The notes: generated by a model from the letters alone, not told the origin. Positions 2-24,546 are shown, counted from the stretch's first letter. The stretch is 33,565 nt of DNA from a bacterium (GCA_019912885.1 JAIOHV010000048.1:1-33565), one strand, 5' to 3'. A program made the numbers and translations.

Positions 2-955
2 CTGGACGATCTGCCCGCGCCGGCGTGGGATCTGTTTCGCGTCGAGGACTATCCATGCCCGCCGCGCTTCATGATGCAGGGGCCGCTCGTTACGCTGGCC
101 GCATCGCGCGGCTGCCCGTGGGATTGCACCTACTGTTCGCAGAACGCGCTGACGCCGGGCGTGCGTCGCCGCGATATCGCCCGCGTGGTGGACGAAATCG
201 AAACGACGCACCGCGAACGCGGCGTGACGAACTTCGGCTTTGTCGACGCGATCTTTCCGCTGAAGGCCGCGGACGGCTTCGCGTTCGCCGCGATGATGAA
301 GGAGCGGGGTTTGGTCGATCGGGTGCGCTGGGGCACGGAGACGCGGTGCGACCTGGTGTCGCGCGAGATGCTCGCCGAACTCAAGAGCGCGGGCTGCCGA
401 TTTTTGATGTACGGATTCGAGAGCGCAAGCCGCGCCACGCTCGACGCGGTCGACAAGCGCGCCGACCCGAAGCAGGCAATCGACGTGATGCGCTGGAGTA
501 AGGAGATCGGCATCGGCACGTACGGGCTGTACATGATCGGCTTCCCCGGCGAGACGCGCGAAATGGCGCGCGAGACGATTCGCTTCGCAAAGGCGCTCGA
601 CACCGACGTGGCGAGCTTCGCGCGCGTGACGCCGTACCCCGGCTCGCCGATGTACGAACAGCACAAGGCGACGCTTGGCGACGTGCCGGCGCATCAGTGG
701 AATAACCAGTATCGCGCCGAGCCGGGCGAGGCCGGGTGGCGCCTGCCGGGAATGTCGTCGGAGGAAATCGGCGCGCTGCTGCGCGAGGCGAACCTGTCGT
801 ACTACTTGCGCCCGCGCCTGATCTGGCGGCACCTGCGCCGCGGGACGATCTCGATCGGCGAGATGGCGCGTGGTTTTGCCGCGCTTGCGCACGACGCGGC
901 CTGGCGTGCTCGCGAAGCGCTTCGCCCAAGGAGCGCGGGCGTTCCGCCTGTGTAA
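2..955 (+). CDS. B12-binding radical SAM protein, 5'-truncated by window edge
   Basis: The reading frame is open from base 2, so the gene begins outside the window and its cobalamin-binding half is missing. What remains starts with the 'LDDLPAPAWDLF' linker that normally joins the B12 domain to the radical SAM core. The 4Fe-4S motif follows in ASRGCPWDCTYC, with the three cysteines as CxxxCxxC. Further on are a YGFESAS segment (SAM-contacting ESG-like strand), a GFPGET loop, and the basic aromatic tail YYLRPRLIWRHLRR. The family uses SAM, a 4Fe-4S cluster and often methylcobalamin for radical methylation or cyclisation; the substrate here is unknown. The last residues (RSAGVPPV) are encoded by a diverged copy of the REP repeat, so the natural stop has probably been displaced. 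The gene converges on the next gene, which is on the minus strand. Confidence 0.88.
   Translation: MDDLPAPAWDLFRVEDYPCPPRFMMQGPLVTLAASRGCPWDCTYCSQNALTPGVRRRDIARVVDEIETTHRERGVTNFGFVDAIFPLKAADGFAFAAMMKERGLVDRVRWGTETRCDLVSREMLAELKSAGCRFLMYGFESASRATLDAVDKRADPKQAIDVMRWSKEIGIGTYGLYMIGFPGETREMARETIRFAKALDTDVASFARVTPYPGSPMYEQHKATLGDVPAHQWNNQYRAEPGEAGWRLPGMSSEEIGALLREANLSYYLRPRLIWRHLRRGTISIGEMARGFAALAHDAAWRAREALRPRSAGVPPV
929..953 (+). repeat. Diverged REP-family-1 copy at the 3' end of the first gene
   Basis: GGAGCGCGGGCGTTCCGCCTG matches the core of the REP seen at 11291-11317 (GGAGCGCAGGCGTCCCGCCTG) except at two positions. It lies inside the coding end of the first radical SAM gene and encodes its final SAGVPPV peptide. 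Confidence 0.7.
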
Positions 956-984
956 ACTCCCGGTCCGCCGAGCCTGTTCGAAAG

Positions 985-1037
985 GGCGGTATGGACCGCG
1001 CACTCCGGCTTCGCCTTCGTTTGCGGCTCTGACATCG
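985..1037 (-). repeat. Dispersed repeat family 2, copy A
   Basis: Read on the minus strand this is GATGTCAGAGCCGCAAACGA, a short GC-rich variable insert, then GGAGTGCGCGGTC. The same two boxes recur at 13816-13860, 13902-13959 and 32968-33032. It fills the gap between two convergent radical SAM genes. Confidence 0.7.
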
Positions 1038-1051
1038 CCGGTGGCGGCGCG

Positions 1052-2473
1052 CTACGTTTCGGATGCGCGCAGTCCCGCCCGCAGCACGCGCAGGCCCTGC
1101 CGCAGGTATCTCGCCAGCACGCGCGCGTCGCGGATGCGCGTGATGCGGCGAAGCAGGTAGCGAGGCCGCCAATAGAACGCGCGGTAGAACACGGATTGCC
1201 ATGCGCGCAGTTCCGCGAGCGAAACGCCGTTCGCGTGCGAGTCGGTACGGTCGGCGTCGTCGTTTGGCGTTGCGCCCCGCAGCGCCTTTTCCGGCGTGAC
1301 GGTTTCGCCGAGCAACCGCGCGCCCGGGCGTGGATCGAACAGATTGAACGACGCGTAATCGAGCGGCACCGTTCGCAGAAAGCGCCGCGTCGTCTCGAGC
1401 GTGTCGCTCGTCTCGCCGGTCAGGCCGATGACGAAATGCCCCAGCGTCTCGATGCCGTGCCGGCGGCACGCCTCAAGCGCGGTGAACGTCGCGGGCAGCC
1501 CGGCGCCTTCCTTGTGATCGGCGAGGATCGCCTCGCTGCCCGACTCCAACCCGAACGCGACAAAGCGGCAGCCCGCGCGCGCCATGAGCGCGATTTGCGC
1601 GTCGTCGAGCGTGTCGGCGCGGGCGTAGCAAAACCAGCGGAAGCCGTAGCGCTTTTCGATCAGCATTTCGCAGAACGCGCGCACGTGCGTGGGGTGGTGG
1701 TTGAACGTCGCGTCGCAGATTTTCAGGCTGCGGATGCCGCACGCGTGCAGGTGGTCGAGCTCCGCTTCGAGATTGTCCGGCTCGCGCCGCGAAAAATGGA
1801 TCATGCCCGTGTTGCAGTAGTCGCATTGGTAGGGACAGCCGTGCATCGTCAGCACGCTCGCCACCGGCTCGGCAAGGCCAAGCGGAAAGCGGTAGCCCTT
1901 CTCGAAAAACATATCGTGCGGCGGTATGGGGTGCGAAAACCATTTACGACCGACTAGCTCGCCCGCGACGATTTCGCCGCCGCGCCGGTGCGTGATCGAC
2001 GTGCGTTCCGCGTGCGCACCGGTGCGAAGCCGGTCGGCAAGGCACGGCGCGGTGATGTCCATCAGGACACCGTCGACAAAAGGCGCGTCGTCCATCACGG
2101 CGCGGCTTTGAAAACGCGGCAGGTCGCCTGAAAGGTAGAGCGGCGCGTCGACGTGCGTAGCCAGCGCCTGAAAAAACGGCCGGTCCTCGGGCCAGGACAA
2201 GTGTGAGCACAACGAAAGAATCGCGACGGGCCGCTCGCGCGCGATCAATTCCAGGCACGCGGCGGGCGCGAGGCGCGTGACGATCGCGTCAACGAGCACG
2301 ACGCGAAAATCCCGGGCCAGATGCGCGGCCTGCAACAGCAGGTCGAGCGGCTGCCAGTAGTAGCCCGCCTTGTCGACGCTGCTGCAGTAGCAGTCGCGCA
2401 GATAGCGCCGCGTGCCCGGCGGATTGAGGAGCACGATGGCCGGTCTGTCGTCTGTTGGGCGGCTTTCGGCCAT
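1052..2473 (-). CDS. B12-binding-type radical SAM protein (degenerate B12 domain)
   Basis: A 473-residue protein. The N-terminal third (about residues 10-150) has the Rossmann-like layout of a cobalamin-binding domain, but the usual GGxH...GEGE signature is not recognisable: the corresponding strand reads LYLSGDLPRF. The radical SAM motif is HGCPYQCDYC with C213, C217 and C220. It is followed by FGLESGSEAIL and a GLTGET loop, and the C-terminal tail contains FYWRPRYLLRRI. It lies 32 bp downstream of another radical SAM gene on the same strand and is probably co-transcribed with it. No strong Shine-Dalgarno precedes the ATG, consistent with coupling. The reaction is unknown; a methylase or a BchE-like oxidative cyclase are the obvious family options. 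Confidence 0.87.
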   Translation of the reverse strand: MAESRPTDDRPAIVLLNPPGTRRYLRDCYCSSVDKAGYYWQPLDLLLQAAHLARDFRVVLVDAIVTRLAPAACLELIARERPVAILSLCSHLSWPEDRPFFQALATHVDAPLYLSGDLPRFQSRAVMDDAPFVDGVLMDITAPCLADRLRTGAHAERTSITHRRGGEIVAGELVGRKWFSHPIPPHDMFFEKGYRFPLGLAEPVASVLTMHGCPYQCDYCNTGMIHFSRREPDNLEAELDHLHACGIRSLKICDATFNHHPTHVRAFCEMLIEKRYGFRWFCYARADTLDDAQIALMARAGCRFVAFGLESGSEAILADHKEGAGLPATFTALEACRRHGIETLGHFVIGLTGETSDTLETTRRFLRTVPLDYASFNLFDPRPGARLLGETVTPEKALRGATPNDDADRTDSHANGVSLAELRAWQSVFYRAFYWRPRYLLRRITRIRDARVLARYLRQGLRVLRAGLRASET

Positions 2474-2505
2474 GGTTCAACGCTACGGAAAAATCGCACC
2501 GGGAG

Positions 2506-4140
2506 CTACGTAAGCGGTCCCGCGCCCTGTGTGTGCAAGCGCGCGAAACCCGCTGACGGGAATGCGGGCGCCGTGCGCGGCCGCACGAGCGTGACATTCG
2601 GGCTATAGCGGGTCAGAGGTCCGCCGCGGTACAGGGCTCGCCGCAGGACGTCGCGGACAAGGTTGTACCCGACGCGCCACGAACTGCTGATCAGGGGCAC
2701 GCGGCTCTTGCGGCGGCGGAGACGCGCCACGTAATCGGCGATGAACTGCTGTTGCAGGAATAACGAGCGCGTCGGGACGAGGCGAAGCCGCCGCTTGTCC
2801 GCGAGGAGCCATTCGGTCACGCGGCGAGGAATCAACACGCAAAACAAAAGCAGATTCGAAAGCCGCATCAATTCGTCGTTCGCGTTGCCGTCTTTCATGG
2901 TGAACGACTTGGTGCCGCCGTCGCTTTCGATCCGCGCGACGTCTTCGGGCGTAAGGTCGCCTGCCTCCAGCGCCGTCTTCACGAGATCGATGCGCGGGTA
3001 GTAGCGGATGTGGAAGACGACGGTGCGATCGACGGGATGGTCGAGATACAACCGGATGAGATTTTCGACATCGCGATTCGTCTGCCGGGGAAGCCCCACG
3101 ATATTGTCCGCCAGCACGTAGATGTTCGTGCGGCGCAGTGCATCGAGCGCCCGAAGCATCGACTTGTCGAACTTCGCGCGGTTGACGACGTTGTCGTCTT
3201 GCCCGGGCACGCGCGATACGCCGATCCAGGCCGCCGCGCAGCCGCTCGATTCGAGCAGCCCCGCGATTTCGTCGTCCACCGAATTCGGATCGACCCAGCA
3301 GAAATACGGCAGGCCAACGCGTTTCGGGTATTGGCGGGCGAACTCCTTGAACCACGCGCGATCCGCGGTGAGCACGTTGTCGTGAATCAGGATCTCACGG
3401 ATGCCGTAACGGACTCGCGCGGACTCGAGCTCGTCGAGAAAATGGTCGACGCTCTTCATGCGCAGATAGCGGCCAAGCCCCTGGCGTCGGCTCTCCTTGA
3501 ACAAGAACGAGTGGCAGCAATACGAGCATGTATGCGGGCAGCCGCGCGACGCGATGGCGTGATAACGCGCGCCGTAATGCCGCTTCCACACATCGCGCAG
3601 CAATTCCTTGTCCGGATGCGGAAGCGAATCGAGATCCTGAATGAACGGGCGTTGCGGATTTGCGTGGAATCCGGCGGGCGTGCCCGTCTTGTACGCCAGA
3701 TTCGCGATCGATTCGTACGGCTTCGCGTTTTCGAGCGCGTCGCACAGTTCGGCGAGAGCCTCCTCGCCTTCGCCCAGTACCCCGAAGTCGAACGCGGGGT
3801 GCGTCATCACCTGTTCGGGCACACTGGTCACATGGATGCCGCCGATGACGATCGGAACATCGAAGTGTTCCTTGATCGCGCTCGCGAGCGTGGCGGCCCA
3901 GCCGAAGTAGTCCGTGACGACCGAAAAACACACGAGGTCGGGCCGCCAATCCGACACCTTCTGAAGCAGCAGCGGCACATGGCTGAACCGGCGCGCCACG
4001 CGCGGCCAGTGAAAATTGCTGTCGTCGAAAAGGCCGGGATCGAAAAACGCGTCGACGGCGTGCCCGGCACGCTTGAGATACGCCGACAGATTCTCGATCG
4101 GCAGCGTTACCTGTATATGCTCGACGAATAGAACCCGCAT
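2506..4140 (-). CDS. B12-binding radical SAM protein, atypical core
   Basis: I start this 544-residue protein at the ATG giving MRVLFVEHIQVTLP, because that is where the first beta strand of a B12-binding domain belongs. The frame is open 43 codons further upstream, but that extension has no such character. VIGGIHVTSVPEQ (about 98-110) and VLGEGEEAL (121-129) form the B12-domain signature. The radical SAM motif is SRGCPHTCSYC with C201, C205 and C208. The position where relatives have a GxESG strand reads IGVSRVPGQDDN, so the usual Glu is missing. The C-terminus is longer and more basic than in its neighbours and lacks the FYxRPR tail. It is first in a two-gene minus-strand operon and is divergent from the next gene across about 157 bp. 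Confidence 0.87.
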   Translation of the reverse strand: MRVLFVEHIQVTLPIENLSAYLKRAGHAVDAFFDPGLFDDSNFHWPRVARRFSHVPLLLQKVSDWRPDLVCFSVVTDYFGWAATLASAIKEHFDVPIVIGGIHVTSVPEQVMTHPAFDFGVLGEGEEALAELCDALENAKPYESIANLAYKTGTPAGFHANPQRPFIQDLDSLPHPDKELLRDVWKRHYGARYHAIASRGCPHTCSYCCHSFLFKESRRQGLGRYLRMKSVDHFLDELESARVRYGIREILIHDNVLTADRAWFKEFARQYPKRVGLPYFCWVDPNSVDDEIAGLLESSGCAAAWIGVSRVPGQDDNVVNRAKFDKSMLRALDALRRTNIYVLADNIVGLPRQTNRDVENLIRLYLDHPVDRTVVFHIRYYPRIDLVKTALEAGDLTPEDVARIESDGGTKSFTMKDGNANDELMRLSNLLLFCVLIPRRVTEWLLADKRRLRLVPTRSLFLQQQFIADYVARLRRRKSRVPLISSSWRVGYNLVRDVLRRALYRGGPLTRYSPNVTLVRPRTAPAFPSAGFARLHTQGAGPLT

Positions 4141-4297
4141 CGCCTGCCCGCGCTTGTCAGGGAAGCCGTCACGATACGGGAAGGGCGGCGCGCTGTCACG
4201 CCGCATCGCGCCAAATACGCCGGTTCGGTGAGCCGCCCCCGATCCGGGATCGTCCCGGTCGATTGCCAACCTGCGGGGCGGGTGTTATGGCAAACGC

Positions 4298-5782
4298 ATG
4301 GCCGCGGTGGATGTCTGTCTCGTCAATACGCCCCTTTGCCGCTACGGCTTCAACCTCAGCGGCATATACCCGATGCCCCATCTGGGGCTGGGTTATCTGG
4401 GTCGGCTTCTCTTCGACGCCGGCGTGTCGGTTGGTTATCTCGATGCGCAATTCGACGCCAACAGCCCCCTTACGCATCCCGATCGCCTGCCAGACGCGCG
4501 CGTGTACGCGCTGACGTCCAAGGTCATCAATCTCGTCCCCACGCACGCGATCGCGCGCGTCATCCGCGAACGCAAGCCGGATGCGCACATCGTGCTTGGC
4601 GGGCCGTGCAACATCATCGAGCCGTCGATCCTGTTCGATCAGTTCCCGGCGTTCGACATCCTGGCAACCGGTGAGGGCGAGGAGGTGATCTTGCCGCTCG
4701 CGCAGCGCCTTCTCGACGGCAAGGGCGCCGACGAGCTTGTTGACGTGCCCGGGCTCGCATTACGCACGAACGACGCCGTGCGTCTCACCGCGCCGGCGAC
4801 GCCCGCCGACCTTTCGCGCGAGATCCATCCGATGCGTTCGCTTTGGCCGGAATCGACGCACCGCATGCACCCGCCGTACGGTATCGCGCCGCCCGTGTCT
4901 CTCCTGGAAACCGCGCGCGGGTGCAGCTACGACTGCTCGTTTTGCGCCATCGACAAAACCGCGCGCGAGCGGCCGGACGAGGTCGTTTTCGATGAGGTGC
5001 GCGAGCTTTTGGCCTCGGGCGTCAACGAAATCCATTTCGTCGATCCGACCTTCACGCTCAACATGAAACGCGCGCGCCGTCTGTGCGAGGGCTTTTCCCG
5101 CATGCCGCGCCCGTTCAAATGGACCTGCAAAACGCGGCTCGATCTCGTCGATCCGGCCCTGCTCGCGTTGATGGCGAATTCGGGGTGCTATCTCATCGCG
5201 TACGGTATCGAGTCCTACGCCGAGGACGTGCTGACGAACATCGGCAAGCGCCTCGCGGTCGAACGCACCAACCGCGCGCTCGCGTGGACGCACAAGGCGG
5301 GCATCCGCTCGGTCGGTTACGTGCTGATTGGATCGCCCGGCGAGTCCGATCGCTCCGTCGCCGAAACGAACCGGATGTTGCGGCGCTCGCAGGTGTGGTT
5401 TGTGTTGTTTGGAATTTATCTGCCGTTGCCGGGTTCCGGACCGATTCCCGCGCACGACCGCGCGCTGAACGAGGATCTCATCGCCTGCTACACGCGCGGC
5501 TACCACGAGCGATTCGCGACGACCGCGCCGAACGGCCACGCGAACGACGCCCTGGCGCGGTGGCTATTGCGCTCGGCGCTCGGATTTTATCTGCACCCGA
5601 AAAACCTCTGGCGCATTGCGCGCGGCGTTCGGGCGACGCGAGAGCTTTGGCATTACGTCAAGGGCGGTGCGCATCTCGCGCGCGAATTCGCGAGATTTGC
5701 GTGGACGCGGATTCGCAAGGGCAAGACCGTCGTCGTTCGATTTTCGGACCGGAGCGACGAGAAGCTGACCGACGCGGCGTAG
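4298..5782 (+). CDS. B12-binding radical SAM protein
   Basis: A 494-residue protein. The N-terminal Rossmann-like domain has PMPHLGLGYLGRLL near residues 26-38 and VLGGPCNIIEPS...ATGEGEEV near 99-130. The usual histidine of GGxH is replaced by cysteine (C104). The core motif is ETARGCSYDCSFC with C209, C213 and C216. It is followed by FVDPTFT, YGIESYAEDVL and a GSPGES loop. The C-terminal part holds FYLHPKNLWRI, the recurrent aromatic/basic tail of this gene set. It is divergent from the upstream operon and convergent with the next gene (55 bp apart), so it is probably transcribed alone. The family role is SAM/cobalamin-dependent radical chemistry; the substrate is unknown. Confidence 0.88.
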   Translation: MAAVDVCLVNTPLCRYGFNLSGIYPMPHLGLGYLGRLLFDAGVSVGYLDAQFDANSPLTHPDRLPDARVYALTSKVINLVPTHAIARVIRERKPDAHIVLGGPCNIIEPSILFDQFPAFDILATGEGEEVILPLAQRLLDGKGADELVDVPGLALRTNDAVRLTAPATPADLSREIHPMRSLWPESTHRMHPPYGIAPPVSLLETARGCSYDCSFCAIDKTARERPDEVVFDEVRELLASGVNEIHFVDPTFTLNMKRARRLCEGFSRMPRPFKWTCKTRLDLVDPALLALMANSGCYLIAYGIESYAEDVLTNIGKRLAVERTNRALAWTHKAGIRSVGYVLIGSPGESDRSVAETNRMLRRSQVWFVLFGIYLPLPGSGPIPAHDRALNEDLIACYTRGYHERFATTAPNGHANDALARWLLRSALGFYLHPKNLWRIARGVRATRELWHYVKGGAHLAREFARFAWTRIRKGKTVVVRFSDRSDEKLTDAA

Positions 5783-5837
5783 TGGCCCGGAACTGGGGGT
5801 CCCACCGGCTGTCGCGTCGTCACCGCGTGGACCAAGG

Positions 5838-7331
5838 CTAAGCGGCCTCGGCGGGCGAATCGCGTTGCGCGATCAGATTGCGCGGATATTTCACGAGACA
5901 ATATGCCATCAGGTTGACGAATCCGTGCACCAATTGCACACGCCGCCCGGAAAATCGCCGCACGATCCGCACGACGCGCCGCGGCCCCAGGTAAAAACGC
6001 AGGTTCGCGACAGCCATGCGCAGACCAAGCTCCGTCGGCCCGACGTTGGAGATGCGGCTGCGTTGCCAGTAGTAATCCCCAAACGGACCCTCGCCGGTGA
6101 GCGCGGCCGCGCGCATGTGCGCCACGAAGTCGAGCGCACCTGGCGGGATCTGCCGGCGTGTCATTTCCGTACCGGCGAATGGCGTCACCTGAAAAAACAA
6201 AGCGGCGCAGAATTTGGAGCGTGCCGCGAATCGTACGGTCTTTCGCATTTCCGCACGCGTTTCCGTGGGGAAGCCGAGCATGAAAAATCCCCAGGTGAAG
6301 ATGCCGAGTCTGTCCGCGATTTCGACCGTCCGTTTCACGCGGTCGAGGTTGTTGTGCTTCTCAATGTACTTCTGCAGCCGCGGGCTCGCCGTCTCGACCG
6401 CGAGAGCCATCGAGAAGGTTCCCACGGACGCGAGCGCGCGCAACACCTCTTCGTCGAGCCGGTCGGCGCGCACGCCGTTGGGGAAGGAAAACCGCGTCAC
6501 AAGGCGGCGGCGCCTGATCTCCTCGCAGATCGCCAAGACGCGTTCGCGCTTGAGATTGAAAATGTCGTCGATCACCTCGAACTCATTTACGCCGTGGTTT
6601 TCGATGAGGTATTCGATCTCGTCGACGACGCGCGCGGGGCTCTGCGCGCGAAATTTCTTGGTAAAGATGTCATGGCAGTACGTGCAGCGGTACGGGCACC
6701 CGCGCGAGGTGAACAGCACGCCATAACGCCCGAGGATGACCGGCGTCATGCGGCGCGAGATCTCGTACGTATCGAGGTCCACGAGGTCCCACGCCGGGAT
6801 CGGCAGCGTGTCCAGGTCTTCGATCAGATCGCGATTCGCGTCCGTCGTGCAAATCTCGCCGCGATGGCGAAACGAAAGCCCGCTCGTTCCCGCGAGTTCT
6901 TCGACCGGCGCGCCGTTCGCGTTGTCGATAAGGCGGACGAAAGCGCGTTCACCCTCGCCGGCGACGACGAAATCGACGGGCATGTCCTCCAGCAGGGAAA
7001 CGCCACAGGCGCTCGCGTGCGGCCCGCCGATCGCAACGGGCGTATTTGGCGCGAGACGTTTGAGAAGGCGGACGAGCGCGCCGGCGCGCGCGGCCTCCGC
7101 GGTCAGCACGGACATGGCGACAAAGTCAGGCGAAAAATCCGCGAGAAGTCGCTCGTAGTCCGCCGGCGTAAGCGGCGCGATGCGCTCGTCAACGAGATGG
7201 AAGTCGTCGCGCCCCGGCCGGTTGGCACGCGCGTACGCGGCCAGACCGATGAGCCCCATCGGCGGGCCCATAGATGTCCCAAACTCCTGTCGGCGCCCGA
7301 GACGGGGCTTGATCAAAAGAACGCGCGCCAT
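5838..7331 (-). CDS. B12-binding radical SAM protein
   Basis: The start at MARVLLIKPRLG is chosen over an ATG six codons upstream because GGAAGG sits seven bases before it and the protein then opens with the expected beta strand. It has 497 residues. The B12 domain shows MGPPMGLIGLAAYA, AIGGPHASACG (about 100-110) and VVAGEGERAF (122-131). The radical SAM motif is TSRGCPYRCTYC with C212, C216 and C219. It is followed by FEVIDDIFNL, LAVETASPRLQ and a GFPTET loop. NLRFYLGPRRVVRIV forms the basic tail near the C-terminus. The gene is divergent from the SPASM-like operon across a 387-bp gap. The substrate is unknown. Confidence 0.9.
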   Translation of the reverse strand: MARVLLIKPRLGRRQEFGTSMGPPMGLIGLAAYARANRPGRDDFHLVDERIAPLTPADYERLLADFSPDFVAMSVLTAEAARAGALVRLLKRLAPNTPVAIGGPHASACGVSLLEDMPVDFVVAGEGERAFVRLIDNANGAPVEELAGTSGLSFRHRGEICTTDANRDLIEDLDTLPIPAWDLVDLDTYEISRRMTPVILGRYGVLFTSRGCPYRCTYCHDIFTKKFRAQSPARVVDEIEYLIENHGVNEFEVIDDIFNLKRERVLAICEEIRRRRLVTRFSFPNGVRADRLDEEVLRALASVGTFSMALAVETASPRLQKYIEKHNNLDRVKRTVEIADRLGIFTWGFFMLGFPTETRAEMRKTVRFAARSKFCAALFFQVTPFAGTEMTRRQIPPGALDFVAHMRAAALTGEGPFGDYYWQRSRISNVGPTELGLRMAVANLRFYLGPRRVVRIVRRFSGRRVQLVHGFVNLMAYCLVKYPRNLIAQRDSPAEAA

Positions 7332-7718
7332 GAAAAAACCTTCCGCCAATTTCGGTTCGTACGATGAAAAAGGTCATCAAGCGTACCAGAAAAATTTTTC
7401 CCGCGAGGCGGGACCGGATGACGCAATTCGCAACGTCCATCGGCCCGTCATCGCGAACGGGAAATTGGTTACGTAGGGCGCAAATTCTTTTCTTGGTAAT
7501 ATCTTTTAGCGCGGAAAGTTCGCCGTGGCAAGGAATTTTTTCGATGTGTCGGCGCGCTGGCCGATCAAGAAAGCCGTCCGGAAAGGGAATCGGTCCGCGG
7601 CGCGCCTCGCGGGCAAGGCTCGAGGCAAATCAAAATCCGTGCGCCGCGCCGAACGTTTTCGGGCTTGCGGGAAGCGGACCCGGGGGCTTAGCATGCGATG
7701 AACGAACGGGGAGTGCGC
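7332..7718. other. 387-bp divergent intergenic region
   Basis: This gap separates two divergent radical SAM transcription units and should hold both promoters. It is the most AT-rich stretch of the first half, especially 7380-7560. A perfect 6-bp hairpin, TCCCGC-GAG-GCGGGA at 7399-7413, lies next to an A/T run. On the minus strand it could act as an attenuator or terminator-like element in the leader of the minus-strand gene. I see no convincing -35/-10 pair, no RNA gene and no plausible small precursor-peptide gene. Confidence 0.5.
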
Positions 7719-11274: not shown

Positions 11275-11290
11275 CCGGGGGGAGCGCGCG

Positions 11291-11317
11291 CCGGGAGCGC
11301 AGGCGTCCCGCCTGCTT
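11291..11317 (+). repeat. REP family 1, left copy L1
   Basis: A 27-bp unit that starts CCGGGAGC and contains the perfect palindrome GCAGGCG-TCC-CGCCTGC (11299-11315), then TT. It is followed by a 13-bp spacer containing TTGCGAC. Confidence 0.85.
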
Positions 11318-11330
11318 AGTTTGCGACTTC

Positions 11331-11357
11331 CTGGGAGCGCAGGCGTCCCGCGTGCTT
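11331..11357 (+). repeat. REP family 1, left copy L2
   Basis: Same unit as at 11291, starting exactly 40 bp later, with one mismatch in the right arm (CGCGTGC). It ends four bases before the stop codon of the transposase gene. Confidence 0.85.
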
Positions 11358-11361
11358 CGAT

Positions 11362-11946: not shown

Positions 11947-11954
11947 CGCCGTGA

Positions 11955-13715: not shown

Positions 13716-13777
13716 GCGCGCCGCGCCGGATGGATCATGCGGCTATGTTGGCGAGCGCGGCGCGGCGGGGCAAGGGA

Positions 13778-13812
13778 GCGATGTCGGAGCCGCGAACGGA
13801 GCGCGCCGTCGG
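13778..13812 (+). repeat. Dispersed repeat family 2, partial copy B1
   Basis: GCGATGTCGGAGCCGCGAAC resembles the first box of the family and GCCGTCGG the end of the second box, with a short insert. It lies directly before the better copy at 13816. Confidence 0.5.
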
Positions 13813-13815
13813 CAC

Positions 13816-13860
13816 GCGATGTCAGGGCCGCAAACGGAGCGCAGCGGAGTGCGCGGTCGG
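13816..13860 (+). repeat. Dispersed repeat family 2, copy B2
   Basis: First box GATGTCAGGGCCGCAAACG (13818-13836), a short variable insert, then second box AGTGCGCGGTCG (13848-13859). It is in inverted orientation to the copy at 13902-13959. Confidence 0.8.
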
Positions 13861-13901
13861 CGCCGCATCAGCACAACGAACAGCGAGAGCGGCGATGCCG
13901 G

Positions 13902-13959
13902 GGCGGTATCGACCGCGCACTTTGCCGCCTGCGGCGGCTTCGTTTGCGGCCCTGATATC
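13902..13959 (-). repeat. Dispersed repeat family 2, copy C
   Basis: CGACCGCGCACT (13910-13921), an insert with its own GCCGCC-TGC-GGCGGC hairpin, then CGTTTGCGGCCCTGATATC (13941-13959). Both boxes are complementary to those of copy B2: 12 of 12 and 18 of 19 bases. Confidence 0.8.
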
Positions 13960-13978
13960 CTGGCGCTGGGGTCGGGAA

Positions 13979-16989: not shown

Positions 16990-18692
16990 CGAGCCCGAAG
17001 TTCGCATCGGGTGCGCCGGCGCCGGGTGCGCGGGCCGCGACGGCCCTCGCGTTGATCGCGGCCGTCGCGCTTTACGCGCTGACGATCCATTTCAATAACC
17101 GCAAATATCTTAGTCTGGATGTGACGCACTTCGATCTGCAGCACGTCACGCACTACTACAATACGATCCGGCAGGGCGGCTTCGGGAATCTGTACGAGAA
17201 AGACCCCTACCTTTTCTTCGCGACGTTTCAGGAACCGAGCAACCTGCTTGCGATCGCGGCGTGGCGAATTTATCCGCACCCGCGCGCGCTGTTCGCGCTG
17301 CAGGGACTCTATTTGTGCGTCGCGGTGTTTCTGGCGTATCTCGTCCTCCTGCGGCTGACGCGGCGGCCGTGGGCGTCGTTCGCCGCAACGGTCGCGCTGG
17401 CGGCCAATCCCTACCTCTGGACATTGTTCACATTCGGGTTTCGGCCAAGCCTTTTCGCCGCGCCGTGCGTTGTCGGATTCGTGCTCGCCCAGAGGCACGG
17501 GCGAACGAAGCTGGCCGCGACGCTGCTCGTGCTCGCGGGTCTCGGCAAGGTGACGATGATGCTCTCGGTCGCGTTCACCGGGCTGCTGTTTTGGGTGATG
17601 GCTCCGCGGCAGCGCTGGGGCATGGGGGTCTTTTTCGCCGCGCTTTTCCTGTTTGTGTCGCTGGGGAGCGTCATGGGCTACATCGCCTCGCGCGCCAACC
17701 TGACGATCACCACCGAGATGCTGCACATCGCGCTCTACGGCGAGGACGTCGGCCAGGCGATCGCGACGATCTTCACGCGGCCGATCCACACGATCGCGCA
17801 GATGCTGAGCCCCGCGAACCTCGCGCACGTGGTGCTGCTGGGGTCGCTTCTGTTCTTGCCGGCGGCGGCGGGGCGATATTTCTGGGGTGCGCTTCCGGAC
17901 ATTGGGCTCATCCTCATGTCCACGACGAGCATGATCCACGGCCAGTATTTCCAGAATGCGTATCCGGCCGTCTTCCATCCGCTGGTCTTCCTTCATAACA
18001 ACCACCTGTTCATCGTCGGATTTCTCATGGCGGGATTTGCCGTCGGCGCGGCGCGGATCATCAACGCGGCCGCGCGGCGCGGCGAGGCCCGCGCGTGGCA
18101 GGCCGCCGTCGCCGTGCTCGTCGCGGGAATCGCCGTGCGTGTGTTGTGGCCGACGATGATCGCCGGGCCGATCCCCGGCAACATCCACTTCGACGACCGC
18201 TACTACGACATGACCGAGCACGACCGTCTGGGCTGGGAGGTCGCCGCGCTCATCCCGCGGCACGCGTCGCTGCGCGCGCAGTGGAACCTTTATCCACCCG
18301 CGGTCGGGCGCCGCGCGGATCAACGCGCGTTCGAGTGGAACCTCGACAAGGTGCGCGAGGCGTACATCTTCGTGGACCTGTTCGCCTTCGAATATCTGCG
18401 CGACCGGTCGGCTTACCTCGACGCCGTGGAGATGGTGAACGACCGCGCCGACTACGGTGCCACGATCTTTGTCGACGGTTACATCGTCTGGCGGCTTGGC
18501 GAACCGACGGAGATGAACGGCGAGGTCCGCTCCTTCCTGCGGGAGCACCGGGACGAGCTGATGAAAAACCACTATCGCGCGTATCGCGACGCCTTTTTGC
18601 CGGAGCCCAGGGTGGGTGTGGATGTCTATTCGCAAACGCAGATCGAGCGTGCCGTGAGCCGGCCGCCAGGCGCTTCCGGGCCTGAAACGTGA
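16974..18692 (+). CDS. DUF2079-like polytopic membrane protein
   Basis: I start at MPDELTSPKF, 16 bases inside the preceding gene, with GGGGA just upstream. The frame is open 49 codons further up, but only in antisense-like Arg-rich sequence. The 572-residue protein has about ten transmembrane segments through residue ~360 and a soluble C-terminal part. The FDLQHVTHYYNTI...PYLFFATFQEPSNLLAIAAW region and FTFGFRPSLFAAPCVVGFVL resemble the DUF2079 layout, a GT-C-like group of uncharacterised membrane proteins. HGQYFQNAYPAVFHPLVFLHNNH matches the His/Tyr-containing late loop. Overlap with the cysteine-repeat gene implies joint expression. A role in glycosylating that protein is conceivable but untested. 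Confidence 0.65.
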   Translation: MPDELTSPKFASGAPAPGARAATALALIAAVALYALTIHFNNRKYLSLDVTHFDLQHVTHYYNTIRQGGFGNLYEKDPYLFFATFQEPSNLLAIAAWRIYPHPRALFALQGLYLCVAVFLAYLVLLRLTRRPWASFAATVALAANPYLWTLFTFGFRPSLFAAPCVVGFVLAQRHGRTKLAATLLVLAGLGKVTMMLSVAFTGLLFWVMAPRQRWGMGVFFAALFLFVSLGSVMGYIASRANLTITTEMLHIALYGEDVGQAIATIFTRPIHTIAQMLSPANLAHVVLLGSLLFLPAAAGRYFWGALPDIGLILMSTTSMIHGQYFQNAYPAVFHPLVFLHNNHLFIVGFLMAGFAVGAARIINAAARRGEARAWQAAVAVLVAGIAVRVLWPTMIAGPIPGNIHFDDRYYDMTEHDRLGWEVAALIPRHASLRAQWNLYPPAVGRRADQRAFEWNLDKVREAYIFVDLFAFEYLRDRSAYLDAVEMVNDRADYGATIFVDGYIVWRLGEPTEMNGEVRSFLREHRDELMKNHYRAYRDAFLPEPRVGVDVYSQTQIERAVSRPPGASGPET

Positions 18693-18785
18693 GCCGCGCC
18701 ACCTTGGTCCGGGTGAGCGCGCCGTGGTAACGTACGTCGTTTCGCCATGGCGTTCCGGCACGGTGATGAAACCGGAAAAAGGTGC

Positions 18786-20177
18786 ATGAAAACCGTTCTC
18801 GTCAGACCCAGCGCCTCGCGCTATTTCTATACCTGCATCCCTCCCTTGGGATTCGGTTATTTGAGCACCACGCTCAAACGCGCCGGCCATTCGGTGCTTT
18901 GGGCGGACATCGGCCACGAGGGGTACACGAAAGAGAAGTTCTTCGCGGACCTGCACCGAGATCCCCCGGGGCTTCTCGGCTTTCAGATTTATTCGCGCAC
19001 GCTTCCCGGCGCGCGGGATTTGATCGAGGAAACGCGAAAGCACGTGCCGGACACGACCGCATTTGTCGCCGGCGGCTGGCACCCGACGCTCGAACCGGAG
19101 CAGACGCTCGATTTTCTGCCGGGCGTCGATTTTGTGCTGATGGGCGAAGCCGACGAATCGATGCCGCGGCTCGCGAACGCGCTCGAGGGACGCACCGGCG
19201 CCGTGCTCGACACCATCCCGGGCCTCGCGTGGCGCGAGGGCGGCAAGGTCCGTAAGAACGAGGCGACGCTCCCGCCCGACCTGGACGCGCTTGGCCACGT
19301 CGACTGGGAGGGCATGCGCCCCTGGACGTACAAGGCCGAGAACCTCGGCGGATTCACGAAATACGCGCCCGCGGCGCTGATGCTCGCCAGCCGCGGTTGC
19401 CCGTACATCTGCGAGTTCTGCTCGGTGCCGGAGGTCAACGGCCACCGCGTTCGGCGCCACGGGATCGAGCACCTGCTCGAGGACGTCGAGCTTTTGCACA
19501 AGAAATATGGCTTCCGCGAAATCCGTTTCATGGACGACAACTTTCCGACGCAAAAATCCTACGTGCTGGAGTTTTGCGACGCGCTTCGGCGCAAGAACTT
19601 CGATATCGCCATCTCGTTTCCCGCGGGCATCCACCTGCGCCTTGTGGATGGCGAGGTTCTCGACGCGCTGAAGTCCGTCGGGCTGTATTCGTTCTCGTGC
19701 GGCATCGAATCGGGCAACGAGCGCGTTCTGAAGATGATCCGCAAGAACATCACGAAAGACGTGGTGCGCGAGAAGATCAAGCTCGTGCAATCGAAGGGCC
19801 TGCAAACGACCGCGTTTTTCATCCTGGGATATCCCACCGAGACGCGCGCGGAGATCGAGGATACGATCCGCTTCGCGCGCGAGCTCGATCTGACCGGCGC
19901 GCACTTCAACGTCTTCACGCCATTTCCGGGCACGAAGATCACGCGCCGCCTGGCCGACTGGGGGCTCTTGCGCGAACACCCGTGGGAGCACATCCACCTG
20001 GAGAACGTGAACTACTCCTACTGCAAGGTATCGCCGCGGACGCTGAAGTACCTGCGTCTCAAGGCGATCGTCACCTTCTGGTTCCGCCCGCGCGCGTTCA
20101 TGCGCAACCTGAAACGCCTGCGCTCGTTCGGGCAGGCGAAATTCCTCATGGAAAAGCTATGGGAGTACGCCACGTAG
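18786..20177 (+). CDS. B12-binding radical SAM protein, first of four in tandem
   Basis: The start at MKTVLVRPSASRYF is chosen because AAGGT lies just upstream and the first B12-domain strand begins there; the upstream ATG adds only 13 uncharacteristic residues. It has 463 residues. The signature is VAGGWHPTLEPEQ (about 94-106) and VLMGEADESM (117-126), with GEAD in place of GEGE. The radical SAM motif is ASRGCPYICEFC with C205, C209 and C212, followed by FMDDNFPTQ, CGIESGNERVL and a GYPTET loop. The tail is FWFRPRAFMRNL. It is collinear with the next gene without gaps through residue 212, so the two are tandem duplicates. Together with the next three genes it forms an operon ending at the terminator at 24519. 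Confidence 0.91.
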   Translation: MKTVLVRPSASRYFYTCIPPLGFGYLSTTLKRAGHSVLWADIGHEGYTKEKFFADLHRDPPGLLGFQIYSRTLPGARDLIEETRKHVPDTTAFVAGGWHPTLEPEQTLDFLPGVDFVLMGEADESMPRLANALEGRTGAVLDTIPGLAWREGGKVRKNEATLPPDLDALGHVDWEGMRPWTYKAENLGGFTKYAPAALMLASRGCPYICEFCSVPEVNGHRVRRHGIEHLLEDVELLHKKYGFREIRFMDDNFPTQKSYVLEFCDALRRKNFDIAISFPAGIHLRLVDGEVLDALKSVGLYSFSCGIESGNERVLKMIRKNITKDVVREKIKLVQSKGLQTTAFFILGYPTETRAEIEDTIRFARELDLTGAHFNVFTPFPGTKITRRLADWGLLREHPWEHIHLENVNYSYCKVSPRTLKYLRLKAIVTFWFRPRAFMRNLKRLRSFGQAKFLMEKLWEYAT

Positions 20178-20198
20178 CGGCGTGGCCGCGAAAGACCC

Positions 20199-21587
20199 AT
20201 GCGTGTCGATCTGGTCCGACCCAACCTCACGAAATACATGTTTTCATCGATCGCGCCGTTGGGTCTTGGTTACATGGCCCGCACGGTGCGAAACGCGGGC
20301 TACGAGGCGCGCATCCGTGACGTCGGCCATGGCGATCTGACCAGGGAATCGTACTACGACGACATTCGCCGCCGCCCGCCGGATATTGTCGGCTTTTCGA
20401 GCTACTCGCGCGATTTCGCGCAGACGATGCAGCTTGTCGACGAGATGGGATCGTTTCTTCCGCGCGGCGTGCCGTTCGTGATCGGCGGGCCGCACCCGTC
20501 CGCGATCCCGGAAGAGACGCTGCGCCTGGCCCCGCGTCTTGACTACGTCATCTCCGGCGAGGGGGAGGAGGCGCTGCCGCTTTTGATGAAGGCGCATTCC
20601 CGCGCGAACGGAGTGCGCCTGGAGGATATTCCGGGGTTGGCCTGGCGCGACGGCGAGACGATTCGCGTCAACGATCGTGTGTTTCCGCAAAACCTCGATG
20701 CGTTCGGGCATATCGACTGGGACGAACTCGACCCGCGAAGCTACCACGGCGAAAACCTCGCCGGCGGTTCGCGCCGCGCGCCCGCGGCGATCGTCATCTC
20801 GAGCCGCGGCTGCCCATTCCACTGCGAATTCTGCACCGATCACATCCTGTTCGGCGCGAAAACGCGGCGGCACAGCGTCGATTACGTCATGGAAGACATC
20901 GAGATCCTGCATCGCAAGTTCGGATTTTCGGAGATCCGCTTCGTGGACGACAACTTCCCGACCGAGCGCGGTTACGTGCGCGCGTTCGTGGAGGAGTTCA
21001 AACGGCGGAACTGGGATCTGATCGTCAGCATGCCGATCGGCATCCACCTGCAGCTCATCGACGAGGAGCTGCTCGATCTTCTGAAGTCGATCGGCATGTA
21101 CGAGATCACCGTCGGCATCGAGGCGGGCAGCCGCCGCGTGCAGAAGTTCATGCGCAAGGGCGTCACGACCGAACTCGTCAGGGAGAAGGTCGGCCTCATT
21201 CGACGGAAGGGCTTCGACACCATCGGCCTTTTCATCCTCGGTTACCCGACCGAGACGAAGGCCGAGATGAACGAGACGATCCGCCTGTCGCTGGAGCTGG
21301 GGCTGGATCAGGCGCATTTCCATCCGTTCATGCCGTTTCCCGGCACGCCGATCACAAGGCGCCTTGAGGAATGGGGACAGCTTCAGACGATTCCCTGGGA
21401 TCAGCATCACTTCGAAAAATTCAATTTCTCGTATTGCGAGCTGCCCGTGTGGCGGCTGCAACTGCTGCGCTTGAAGGCGATGTCGCTGTTTTATCTGCGC
21501 CCCCGGCAGTTTTTCCGGTTCGTCACGAAATTCAAGACGTTCGGTCAGTTCAAATTCATCTTCACAAAAGTGCTGGAGTACATGTGA
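20199..21587 (+). CDS. B12-binding radical SAM protein, second of four in tandem
   Basis: A 462-residue protein starting 21 bp after the previous stop. It is clearly paralogous to the upstream gene: VRPxxxxY near the N-terminus, LDAFGHIDWDEL, HRKFGFSEIRFVDDNFPTE and FNFSYC near the end all have counterparts there. The B12 signature is VIGGPHPSAIPEE (about 94-106) and VISGEGEEAL (117-126). The radical SAM motif is SSRGCPFHCEFC with C205, C209 and C212, then VGIEAGSRRVQ and a GYPTET loop. The tail is FYLRPRQFFRFV. The divergence between the two copies suggests related but distinct substrates or successive sites, not a recent duplication. Confidence 0.91.
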   Translation: MRVDLVRPNLTKYMFSSIAPLGLGYMARTVRNAGYEARIRDVGHGDLTRESYYDDIRRRPPDIVGFSSYSRDFAQTMQLVDEMGSFLPRGVPFVIGGPHPSAIPEETLRLAPRLDYVISGEGEEALPLLMKAHSRANGVRLEDIPGLAWRDGETIRVNDRVFPQNLDAFGHIDWDELDPRSYHGENLAGGSRRAPAAIVISSRGCPFHCEFCTDHILFGAKTRRHSVDYVMEDIEILHRKFGFSEIRFVDDNFPTERGYVRAFVEEFKRRNWDLIVSMPIGIHLQLIDEELLDLLKSIGMYEITVGIEAGSRRVQKFMRKGVTTELVREKVGLIRRKGFDTIGLFILGYPTETKAEMNETIRLSLELGLDQAHFHPFMPFPGTPITRRLEEWGQLQTIPWDQHHFEKFNFSYCELPVWRLQLLRLKAMSLFYLRPRQFFRFVTKFKTFGQFKFIFTKVLEYM

Positions 21588-21680
21588 TCGCTTCGCGGCC
21601 CGCGCCGGATTTGTTACGCTCGATCCTTCGCGGCGGGACGCGAACCGGGCGTGGCGCGCCGGCGCGAAAGTTTGGGAACC

Positions 21681-23072
21681 ATGGCTGACGTCAGTCTGAT
21701 TCAATCGTCGATCTTCCATCCGGACGTCGAAAAGGCGCCTCCGTTGGGAGTCTTGTATCTGGCGTCGAACCTGCGCGCCGCCGGTATCGACCCGGTCGTG
21801 TACGACATGAAGGGCTACGACCTGACCGTGCCGAGGGTCGTGGACGCCTATCGGAAAAACCCCACGCCGTATGTCGGTATCGGCGCGATCACCTACGACT
21901 CGCGCGCCATGCACGAGCTCGCGAACGGTATCCGCGCCGCCAACAAGAACGCGCGCATCGTCGCCGGCGGCCCGCACGCCACCGCGTATCGCGAGGATCT
22001 GCTGCTGCAAAACCGCGATCTCGACGCGGTGATCCTGAACGAGGGGGAGGAGACGTTCGCCGATCTCATCCACGGCGAGCGAAGCGGCAAGCAAATGCAC
22101 GAGATCCCCGGCCTCGCGTTCCGCGACGGCGACACCGTGATGTTTTCGCCCGAGCGCCCGCTGTTGCAGGATCTCGACGCGCTCGAATACCCCGCCTACG
22201 ACCTCGTGCCGCCGTCGGTGTACTGGGACAAGCCGCGCATTGCGTGGGTGTACGCGGAAAAGCAATACGCCACCATCACGACAAGCCGCGGCTGCCCGTA
22301 TCGCTGCGCCTATTGCCACCGCACGCTCGGCAAGCGGTGGCGCGTGCGGAGCCTCGACAACGTCATGGGCGAGTTGCACATGCTGAAGGAACGCTACGGG
22401 GTCAGGGAGATCGTGCCTGTCGATGACATGTTCAACCTGTCGGTCAAGCGCGTGAACGAATTCGCCCAGCGCGTCATCGACGAAAAGCTCGACCTGAAAT
22501 TCCACTTCCCCGTGGGTTTTCGTGCGGACATCCTGACCGAGGAGTCGATCGCGCTGCTCAAGGAAGCCGGCATGTACCGCTGCATGGTCGCCATCGAGAC
22601 CGGCAGCCCGCGCGTGCAGAAGGTCATCGACCGCAATCTGAACATCGACAAGACCAGGCACATGATCGGCAAGATCGCGGACGCCGGCGTCATGGTGCAT
22701 GGCGTGTTCATCCTCGGACTTCCGACGGAAACGAAGGAAGACATGATGGAGACGATGCGTTTTGCGCTCGAATCCAAGCTCCATTCGCTGGCGGTTTCCA
22801 TCGCGATTCCGTTCAAGGACTGCAAGCTCATCGACTTGGCCAAGGCCGACGGCGTGGAGTTCTCCGACGACTTCGACCGCTACAACTACACGCAGTCGCG
22901 CGTGAACCTGACGCACGTTCCGACCGAATGGGTGATCAAGCTTCGCCGCGACACGTACCGCCGGTTTTTTACGCCACGCCGCGTGTGGAATTTCGTGCGC
23001 CTGCTGCCGCGGCCGACGCGGCATATGGCGCGGCTCGCCAAGGTGTTCGTACGCAAGGCGTTCCTGTGGTAG
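21681..23072 (+). CDS. B12-binding radical SAM protein, third of four in tandem
   Basis: The start at MADVSLIQSS is preceded by GGGA at a spacing of five; an ATG ten codons upstream gives an Arg-rich, non-homologous extension. It has 463 residues. The signature is VAGGPHATAYRED (about 94-106) and VILNEGEETF (117-126). The radical SAM motif is TSRGCPYRCAYC with C205, C209 and C212, at the same positions as in its two upstream neighbours. It is followed by VDDMFNL, VAIETGSPRVQ and a GLPTET loop. The tail is RRFFTPRRVWNFV. The 93-bp gap before it is the largest in the operon but shows no terminator. In the core it resembles the gene at 5838 (MFNLSVKRV versus IFNLKRERV, and ETxSPRxQ in both). Confidence 0.91.
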   Translation: MADVSLIQSSIFHPDVEKAPPLGVLYLASNLRAAGIDPVVYDMKGYDLTVPRVVDAYRKNPTPYVGIGAITYDSRAMHELANGIRAANKNARIVAGGPHATAYREDLLLQNRDLDAVILNEGEETFADLIHGERSGKQMHEIPGLAFRDGDTVMFSPERPLLQDLDALEYPAYDLVPPSVYWDKPRIAWVYAEKQYATITTSRGCPYRCAYCHRTLGKRWRVRSLDNVMGELHMLKERYGVREIVPVDDMFNLSVKRVNEFAQRVIDEKLDLKFHFPVGFRADILTEESIALLKEAGMYRCMVAIETGSPRVQKVIDRNLNIDKTRHMIGKIADAGVMVHGVFILGLPTETKEDMMETMRFALESKLHSLAVSIAIPFKDCKLIDLAKADGVEFSDDFDRYNYTQSRVNLTHVPTEWVIKLRRDTYRRFFTPRRVWNFVRLLPRPTRHMARLAKVFVRKAFLW

Positions 23073-23097
23073 GGGCGACGCGCCGCACGGAGGGGTA

Positions 23098-24504
23098 ATG
23101 TCCGATCTTCTGCTGATTCAGCCGCCGAACATCGAGGGAACGCTGTTCAACCTCCCCGGCGTCGAGGTGCCGATGTCGATCATGACCGTCTCCGCGTATC
23201 TGAAACGCGAGGGCTACAGCACCGACATCGTCGACCTGACGCTCACGAAAAATCCACGCGATACGCTTCGCCGCGTGCTGTACGGCAATGCGCCCGAGGC
23301 CGTCGGGATCACCTCCTACACCTCCAACATGGAGATCGCCGGGCGCATCGCGCAACGCGTGCGCGAGGCATGGCCGAAAGCCAGGCTCGTGCTCGGCGGA
23401 TTTCATCCGTCCGCGCTGCCGGAGCAGACGATTCGCGAATACCCCGTGTTCGACGCCGTCGTGCACGGCGAGGGAGAGGAGACGCTGACCGAGCTGATGA
23501 ACGCATGGGGACGCGGCGGCTCGATCGCGAACATCCTCGGCATCGGCTACCTCGACGGCGACGAGGTGCGTCTTAACGCGCCACGCCCGCTGATGAAGGA
23601 TCTCAACGCGCTGCCGTTTCCGGATCGCGATTCCGTCCCGGTGACCCGCTACGTGCCGGATGTCGGCAACTACCACTCGCTGCCGACGACGGGCATCCTG
23701 TTCTCGCGCGGGTGTCCGTGCCCCTGCGGCTTCTGTTCTAAGAGCGTGTTTCTCGACACCGTGCGATATCGCACGCCGGAAAACTTCTGCGACGAAATCC
23801 GCGAGTGCCAGCGCCGCTATGGCGTCAACGACTTTCGCCTGTTCGACGAAGGCCCCACGATCCGCAAGCGCAACATGAAGGTGATGTGCGAGGAAATTTT
23901 GCGGCAGGGCCTGAAATTCACGTGGAATTGCTTCTCGCGCGTGGACGTGGTGGACGAGGAACTGCTCGAGCTGATGGCGCGCGCGGGCTGCTACCACGTG
24001 ATCTACGGCGTGGAGACGATCGTCCCCGAGACGCAGGAGCGCGTCAAAAAGCGCATCGACATCGAGCGTACCAAGGAGGTGTGCCGCCTGACGCGCAAGC
24101 ACGGCATCGAGTGCAAGGCGAACTTCATCCTGGGCTTCCCCTGGGAAGGGGAGGAAGAAGCGGAGATGAACGTGAAATTCGCGACCCAGCTCGACGCGGA
24201 CCTCGCCTCGTTCAATCTCTTCAAGCCGATGCCCGGCAGCCCGCTCTACGACGAGATGACGTCGAAGGGCGAGATCTTCGCGAGCAGTTGGGAAGACTTT
24301 TTCGTCACGAGCGATTCCAAGATATTCCATTCGAAGATGGATCAGGCGACGCAAAAGCGCGTCCTGAAAAACGCGTGGCTGCGGTTTTATTTTTCGCCGC
24401 GGGCGATTCGCCGGCGCTTCCAGCGCCTCTTGCGCGACCCGGAGGTCGAGGCGAAAAAGATCTTCACCGGCGTCTCGGTCCTTCTCGCAAACGCGTTTCG
24501 GTAG
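23098..24504 (+). CDS. B12-binding radical SAM protein, last of the tandem operon
   Basis: A 468-residue protein with GGAGGGG immediately before the ATG, 25 bp after the previous stop. The signature is VLGGFHPSALPEQ (about 98-110) and VVHGEGEETL (121-130). The radical SAM motif is FSRGCPCPCGFC: C206, C210 and C213 are the expected ligands, and C208 is an unusual extra cysteine inside the loop. LFDEGPTIRKRN, YGVETIVPETQ and a GFPWEG loop follow. The tail is RFYFSPRAIRRRF. An intrinsic terminator begins 15 bp after its stop, so this is the last gene of the operon. The substrate is unknown. Confidence 0.91.
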   Translation: MSDLLLIQPPNIEGTLFNLPGVEVPMSIMTVSAYLKREGYSTDIVDLTLTKNPRDTLRRVLYGNAPEAVGITSYTSNMEIAGRIAQRVREAWPKARLVLGGFHPSALPEQTIREYPVFDAVVHGEGEETLTELMNAWGRGGSIANILGIGYLDGDEVRLNAPRPLMKDLNALPFPDRDSVPVTRYVPDVGNYHSLPTTGILFSRGCPCPCGFCSKSVFLDTVRYRTPENFCDEIRECQRRYGVNDFRLFDEGPTIRKRNMKVMCEEILRQGLKFTWNCFSRVDVVDEELLELMARAGCYHVIYGVETIVPETQERVKKRIDIERTKEVCRLTRKHGIECKANFILGFPWEGEEEAEMNVKFATQLDADLASFNLFKPMPGSPLYDEMTSKGEIFASSWEDFFVTSDSKIFHSKMDQATQKRVLKNAWLRFYFSPRAIRRRFQRLLRDPEVEAKKIFTGVSVLLANAFR

Positions 24505-24518
24505 GGCGAAGGACCGGC

Positions 24519-24546
24519 GGCGCCCCCGTTCGGGTGCCACTTTTTT
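24519..24546 (+). terminator. Intrinsic terminator of the four-gene radical SAM operon
   Basis: GGCGCCC (24519-24525), a six-base loop, then GGGTGCC (24532-24538) makes a seven-pair stem with one G-U. Two bases later comes TTTTTT. It lies 15 bp after the last stop codon of the operon. Confidence 0.85.

Follow-up and report, generated by a model that had tools for sequence, protein, structure and literature searches.

Known systems with several radical SAM enzymes

The cobalamin (Cbl)-dependent enzymes of the radical S-adenosylmethionine (rSAM) superfamily are among its largest subclasses, with more than 80,000 predicted sequences (PMC13142503), and several of the known ones perform no methylation (PMC13142503, PMC13331322). 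Few Cbl-dependent rSAM enzymes have a known reaction. Here we describe an island of thirteen rSAM genes, r01 to r13, on a stretch of 33565 bp (the window) which is the entire contig C48 of genome G000, from an uncultivated bacterium of the GTDB phylum FEN-1099 (Ca. Lernaellota or Podoxiota). We interpret this island, with modest confidence, as a set of ancient, functionally distinct rSAM enzymes of one multi-step pathway, or of two linked ones, whose scaffold would likely be a lipid-linked sugar or surface glycan. If the enzymes do share one product, the pathway would be among the most radical-rich known.

Several described systems resemble the island in part. The class B enzymes TsrM, OxsB, TokK, CysS, MgmA, BchE, HpnJ and PhpK have an N-terminal B12 domain and a CxxxCxxC core, as do nine of the eleven Cbl-type proteins here; however, the island proteins score far below the curated cut-offs, and r02 lacks a recognisable PF02310 (B12-binding) domain. 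In carbapenem clusters, e.g., that of asparenomycin with TokK and two more (PMC8992657), several distinct Cbl-dependent rSAM enzymes likewise share one cluster; however, these are three in number, versus eleven Cbl-type enzymes in the island, and the other neighbours differ. The ladderane-associated fatty-acid clusters of anammox bacteria also combine several rSAM enzymes with a glycosyltransferase, whereas their four putative rSAM enzymes are spread across clusters (PMC2649909), versus thirteen in one island here, in which no fatty-acid synthase genes were recognised.

Two further comparisons concern single enzymes. AprD4, a 1,2-diol dehydratase acting on a sugar, belongs to the solved structures closest to r02 and r13 and is the best solved sequence relative of r13 and of the r02 family; it is also the best full-length fold in the PDB for the r02 model, followed by TsrM. 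However, the identity is about 20%, the scores of the AprD4 family NF033070 (r08 122.7, r12 86.5 and r13 82.1 bits) are well below the cut-off of 500, and the partner gene and aminoglycoside context of AprD4 are not seen here. The SPASM enzymes SuiB, SkfB, PqqE, AhbD and anSME, and the related BlsE, carry rSAM and SPASM domains as do r06 and r07, whereas r06 and r07 form a paired paralogue module tied to B12-type rSAM partners, and AhbD reaches 124.8 bits for r07 versus a cut-off of 500. BlsE, a sugar-nucleoside decarboxylase, is among the nearest solved structures of r06 and r07, and is related to them in sequence and fold only.

Phylum FEN-1099 is represented by seven genomes listed in PMC11382960. 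The relatives compared here are the six other genomes of the host's class (G001–G006), so that the phylum set comprises seven genomes including G000, whose assembly is 4.8 Mb in 230 contigs and 99% complete. No papers on rSAM enzymes in this phylum were found in the open-access literature, subscription papers lying outside the search.

Content and density of the island

Between window positions 2 and 24504 there are thirteen long open reading frames (ORFs), all separate and each with its own CxxxCxxC core (Table 1), and each ORF matches Radical_SAM (PF04055) above the gathering score, which places all thirteen in the superfamily. The first-pass annotation of this DNA, which had counted thirteen rSAM genes over positions 2–24546, is confirmed in the number and in the start of the span, whereas the last gene stops at 24504. 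It had also assigned eleven of the genes to the Cbl type, which holds as a layout: eleven have the long B12-type arrangement, with PF02310 above cut-off in nine (r03, r04, r05, r08, r09, r10, r11, r12 and r13), of which r04 just passes (32.4 versus 32.1 bits). Pfam finds no PF02310 match in r02, whose N-terminal half is Rossmann-like with a B12-like fold in a modest AlphaFold2 model only (predicted local distance difference test, pLDDT, 67), and the B12 half of r01 is inferred from the layout because the contig end truncates the 5′ part of the gene. As C48 ends there, the island cannot be followed further to the left. Given a recognisable N-terminal domain, the nine PF02310 proteins are predicted to be Cbl-dependent enzymes, and r02 may be one by its modest fold model only. 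The remaining pair, r06 and r07, lack a B12 domain and belong to the SPASM enzymes, with PF13186 C-terminal to the core (34.4 and 32.6 bits, respectively; cut-off 21.5). Two operons that had been described, a three-gene overlapping one and a four-gene tandem one, are both evident from the gene coordinates: in r06-r07-r08, r07 starts with an ATG at 8795 and overlaps r08 at 9838–9841, and in r10–r13 the gaps are 21, 63 and 25 nt. Two other readings were rejected as wrong, namely the plus-strand ORF 5865–7367, which is antisense to the true gene r05 (−), and the 825-aa frame 7364–9841 taken as one gene, where the true gene is r07.

The density of these genes had been called exceptional, and it is. 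When the 90 rSAM domains of G000 were placed at random in 2000 trials, a 24.5-kb span was expected to hold 0.46 of them, and the densest such span averaged 3.7 and never exceeded 6, versus 13 observed. This bears on the main rival explanation, i.e., genomic crowding, in which a lineage rich in rSAM genes merely has at least two unrelated rSAM pathways and some single genes next to one another, their density reflecting no joint function. The lineage is indeed rich: G000 has 90 PF04055 domains and its relatives 100–138, compared with a median of 23 (range 6–71) across 29 genomes from other families, although the excess is smaller per megabase and one comparison genome is equally dense (71 in 3.4 Mb). 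However, even for so rich a genome, the maximum reached by random placement was 6 per 24.5-kb span.

One family or many

Pairwise identities among the ten full B12-type proteins are 18–31%, except for r10 and r11 at 46%. A tree of 137 domains from G000, its relatives and other phyla places the common ancestor of the window's B12-type set at the root of all 137 tips. Since the deep nodes are poorly supported, the shallow groupings alone were used: r02, r08, r09, r12 and r13 each join their orthologues of other genera, and the clade of r03 (support 1.0) includes proteins of Omnitrophota, Latescibacterota, Magnetococcales and Phycisphaerales. The island is thus an assembly of old, distinct rSAM lineages, in which r10 and r11 alone look like a recent duplication. 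A lineage-specific tandem expansion of one B12-type family, with paralogues diverging in place, would account for that sister pair (support 1.0) and perhaps for the loose relation of r05 to r12; however, the remaining identities and the grouping of r02, r03, r08, r09, r12 and r13 with other genera or phyla largely refute it for the island, and we regard it as improbable.

Gene order and modules in relatives

Genome G002, of the same family as G000 and of another genus, was assembled independently and keeps the order r06-r07-r08-gtc1-r09-u450-gtc2-B12rSAM-r12-r13 on the same strands, where gtc1 and gtc2 are putative membrane glycosyltransferases and u450 is a Cys-rich protein. As the central gene order recurs in this independent assembly of another genus, misassembly is unlikely to lie behind the island. 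The G002 assembly is rich in frameshifts, because of which its genes appear fragmented; it has a single r05-like gene in place of r10/r11, and an extra gtc1 copy and rSAM-like frame.

In the more distant genera, two modules recur. First, r02-r06-r07 are adjacent in G001, G004, G005 and G006, and r06-r07 alone in G003; r06 is conserved in all seven phylum genomes, and the r02 orthogroup, with the signature NPPxxRxxxRDxxCSSxSKAxYxW, has orthologues above 700 bits in the same four relatives. Second, tandems of r12-type genes (r12a-r12b) occur in G001, G003, G004, G005 and G006, and r13, which has an orthologue (47–67% identical) in five of the six relatives, adjoins such a tandem in G001 and G004 and lies within 15 kb of it in G005. 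Genome G001 has r09 after r02-r06-r07, G005 has it together with r12a/b and r13, and in G003 two diverged genes, resembling r09 and r02, stand next to each other. Beyond the phylum, relatives of r06 adjoin r03-like B12-type rSAM genes in Omnitrophota, Magnetococcales, Latescibacterota and Phycisphaerales, and an r09-like one at locus L051. This recurring cluster of orthogroups shows which enzymes belong together and offers a ready set for in vitro reconstitution.

The first-pass annotation had offered a pathway or one expanded family, to be judged from a tree of the eleven proteins and from gene order in relatives, with scattered proteins in no conserved order leaving simple crowding. The proteins are widely scattered, yet the order and the module composition are conserved, so that only half of this outcome is seen and a pathway, or pathways, are favoured over one expanded family, the pair r10/r11 excepted.

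Five points weigh against a common pathway of rSAM enzymes acting on a lipid-linked sugar. First, the modules r02-r06-r07 and r12a-r12b-r13 lie on separate contigs in G003, G004, G005 and G006, i.e., most relatives, and could therefore belong to two pathways that are neighbours in the host family only. Second, no partner is clearly conserved for r01, r04, r10 or r11. Third, few non-rSAM genes are conserved alongside the set, so that the substrate assignment depends on the GT-C (membrane glycosyltransferase) neighbours and on distant homology. Fourth, in lineages that carry about 100 rSAM genes, some of these are bound to be neighbours in any case. Fifth, the peptide enzymes SkfB, PqqE and SuiB score equal to or above BlsE for r06 and r07. 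The separate contigs are also what crowding would produce. However, gene order is kept between genera at 37–71% protein identity, and r09 is tied to either module in different genera, both of which speak against it; we hold crowding to be an unlikely but serious contender.

Proposed chemistry and candidate products

In a common pathway, the SPASM enzymes r06 and r07 and the B12-type enzymes would work successively on a single scaffold, with one radical C–H functionalisation per enzyme (C-methylation, deoxygenation, cyclisation or epimerisation). This scaffold would most likely be a sugar linked to a polyprenyl or lipid carrier, and its transfer to a surface glycan, lipid or protein may then fall to the GT-C proteins. 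The lipid or glycan product put forward earlier gains indirect support from the neighbours. GT-C-type proteins lie near the r12/r13 set in five genomes (G000, G001, G002, G003 and G005), two of them identified by weak profile matches and that of G001 recognised solely from its hydrophobic segments and DPDE/PL-like start. Both gtc1 and gtc2 pass the PMT_2/DUF2079 cut-offs with multiple transmembrane segments and are predicted GT-C glycosyltransferases. In other phyla, the scanned neighbours of r06 relatives include GT2 glycosyltransferase, SAM-methyltransferase and short-chain dehydrogenase (SDR) genes.

The more specific proposal of a heavily methylated or cyclised product, however, is not borne out, as no function-named cut-off is reached and AprD4, to which r02 and r13 are closest among solved proteins, is no methylase. 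None of the thirteen proteins reaches a curated NCBIfam cut-off, the best matches being at most 227 bits versus cut-offs of several hundred. The best weak matches are BchE (TIGR02026, cut-off 481.35; r13 at 226.9 bits), HpnJ (TIGR03471, cut-off 577.6; r12 at 173.5 bits) and the P-methyltransferase PhpK (TIGR04479, cut-off 600; best about 125 bits).

The HpnJ matches raise the possibility that the island tailors hopanoids or other polycyclic lipids in an HpnJ/HpnH-like manner, since HpnJ is the best or second-best weak match of r01, r08, r10 and r12, and G000 and G001 encode a full squalene-hopene cyclase. However, these HpnJ scores stay at or below 174 bits versus a cut-off of 578, and G003–G006 carry the core orthogroups, yet only weak, fragment-level cyclase-family matches. 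With the full cyclase in two of the seven genomes only, a hopanoid as product of the conserved core is disfavoured, and we consider this explanation very improbable.

A second candidate is the maturation of a ribosomally synthesised and post-translationally modified peptide (RiPP), in which r06 and r07 would crosslink or epimerise a precursor peptide and the B12-type enzymes would C-methylate it. SPASM and B12-type rSAM enzymes are a known RiPP combination, the nearest folds of r06 include SuiB, SkfB and PqqE, and there are weak matches to ApyD and rSAM_ocin. However, these RiPP models score far below cut-off, Pfam finds no PqqD-like recognition domain, and no peptidase or exporter was recognised in the island. 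No small intergenic ORF is conserved in the relatives, two apparent matches being the start of r09, so that neither a precursor gene nor a recognition domain was found, although an unusual or distant precursor may exist. RiPP maturation thus appears improbable.

rSAM richness and multi-core proteins

The proteome of G000 contains 45 B12-binding matches. By a single-gene test, CobS (PF02654) was not found in five of the seven genomes (G000, G003, G004, G005 and G006), and these B12-rich proteomes may therefore depend on scavenged cobamides.

Six of the seven phylum genomes encode a single open frame of 2363–2606 aa with five rSAM cores, the first SPASM-like and the other four B12-type. A second giant type, of 1544–2106 aa with three or four recognisable cores, occurs in five genomes, with four cores (1948–2106 aa) in G000, G004 and G006 and three in the frames of G002 and G005; both types appear broken in frameshift-rich G002. 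In two of the five-core proteins, Pfam recognises Radical_SAM five times and B12-binding four times, and in one four-core protein it recognises Radical_SAM four times. These multi-core proteins are predictions from open frames. Among 386 sampled genomes (a sample, not a census), no five-core fusion was found outside the phylum, where the first domain occurs in frames of at most 706 aa only, and the open-access literature yielded no papers on four- or five-domain rSAM proteins, subscription papers being beyond that search.

Upstream of the five-core protein of G000, on the same contig C218, are two further SPASM fusions: a glycosyltransferase group 1–radical SAM–SPASM protein of 1080 aa (L002:1800-5039) and a protein of 1113 aa with a carbamoyltransferase N-terminus followed by radical SAM and SPASM (L002:5115-8453). 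Their position near the five-core protein again ties rSAM chemistry to glycans in this lineage.

Whether radical SAM reactions can be arranged in an assembly line is a separate question posed by the five-core proteins. Tentatively, and with more doubt than belief, we suggest that a surface glycan or lipid of a new class might be made by at least seven conserved rSAM enzymes (r02, r06, r07, r09, r12a, r12b and r13) in an undescribed multi-step pathway, and that such chemistry might be condensed elsewhere in the genome into four- to five-core polypeptides.

Other genes in the window

Table 1. Features of the window and the multi-core frames of the phylum (positions in the window unless a locus is given).
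Feature	Position	Strand	Description	Profile matches
r01	2..955	+	radical SAM, B12-type by layout, 5′ cut by contig end	PF04055 7e-22; partial HpnJ-like match 114 bits
r02	1052..2473	-	B12-like-fold radical SAM	PF04055 3.8e-18; no PF02310
r03	2506..4269	-	B12-binding radical SAM	PF02310 5e-16; PF04055 3e-11
r04	4298..5782	+	B12-binding radical SAM	PF02310 8.9e-8; PF04055 2.4e-18
r05	5838..7349	-	B12-binding radical SAM, related to r12 in tree	PF02310 1.8e-15; PF04055 1.8e-21
r06	7698..8795	+	SPASM radical SAM without B12 domain	PF04055 2e-16; SPASM 2.7e-8
r07	8795..9841	+	SPASM radical SAM, r06 paralogue, translational overlap with r06	PF04055 2.1e-22; SPASM 9.9e-8 (scored within long frame)
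r08	9838..11274	+	B12-binding radical SAM, 4-nt overlap with r07; orthologues in G001, G002	PF02310 6.3e-22; PF04055 6.3e-24
RAYT-like insertion	11287..12042		REP-like inverted repeats I1-I3 round Y1-transposase gene, between r08 and gtc1	PF01797 1.8e-7
gtc1	11955..13715	-	GT-C-type membrane glycosyltransferase (PMT_2); ~7 crude hydrophobic segments	PF13231 1.8e-11
r09	13979..15433	-	B12-binding radical SAM, phylum-wide orthogroup	PF02310 8.8e-16; PF04055 5.1e-19
u450	15637..16989	+	Cys-rich, repeated Cys-containing units, one N-terminal hydrophobic segment; position kept in G002, 37% identity	
gtc2	16827..18692	+	DUF2079 membrane protein, GT-C-like; frame overlaps u450, start codon uncertain	PF09852 1.6e-9
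r10	18747..20177	+	B12-binding radical SAM, sister gene of r11 at 46% identity	PF02310 3.9e-15; PF04055 8.8e-24
r11	20199..21587	+	B12-binding radical SAM	PF02310 3.4e-19; PF04055 3.4e-20
r12	21651..23072	+	B12-binding radical SAM, orthogroup in tandem pairs in other genera	PF02310 3e-16; PF04055 1.4e-22
r13	23098..24504	+	B12-binding radical SAM	PF02310 1.4e-21; PF04055 2.7e-18
Five-core frames	L075:1973-9790 (G000:C218); L076:2450-9562; L077:12369-19457; L078:5452-13032; L079:6939-14285; L080:5456-12820			
Second giant type	L004:7328-13537 (G000:C169); L083:12254-18571; L084:1534-7377; L081:3573-8267; L082:5129-9760			

The middle of the island is interrupted by an insertion resembling a REP-associated tyrosine transposase (RAYT) element, REP being repetitive extragenic palindromic sequences. 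Its Y1-transposase coding region spans about 11362–11949 on the minus strand, and its right REP arm forms the C-terminus of gtc1. Related RAYT/REP copies occur elsewhere in G000 (contigs C62, C1 and C53), and no match to this stretch was found in the corresponding region of G002, in which two gtc1 homologues lie at the equivalent place. The position of gtc2 is also kept in G002, and a distant homologue lies between rSAM genes in G003; u450 has no Pfam match. Near the intergenic region of gtc1 and r09, a palindromic element (13797–13960) has further occurrences at G000:C91:49333-49795, with a spacing of about 61 bp, and at G000:C181:366-784.

The right flank of the window (25136–33565) is ordinary. 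It encodes a lipoprotein with a weak GH127-like match, a kelch protein, an isocitrate/isopropylmalate dehydrogenase (28921–30132, minus strand), an acetyl-CoA-synthetase-like ligase, a metallophosphoesterase and an NFACT protein. The plus-strand ORF 28870–30702 was rejected as a wrong, antisense reading of the dehydrogenase gene. Several of the right-flank genes share their order with G002.

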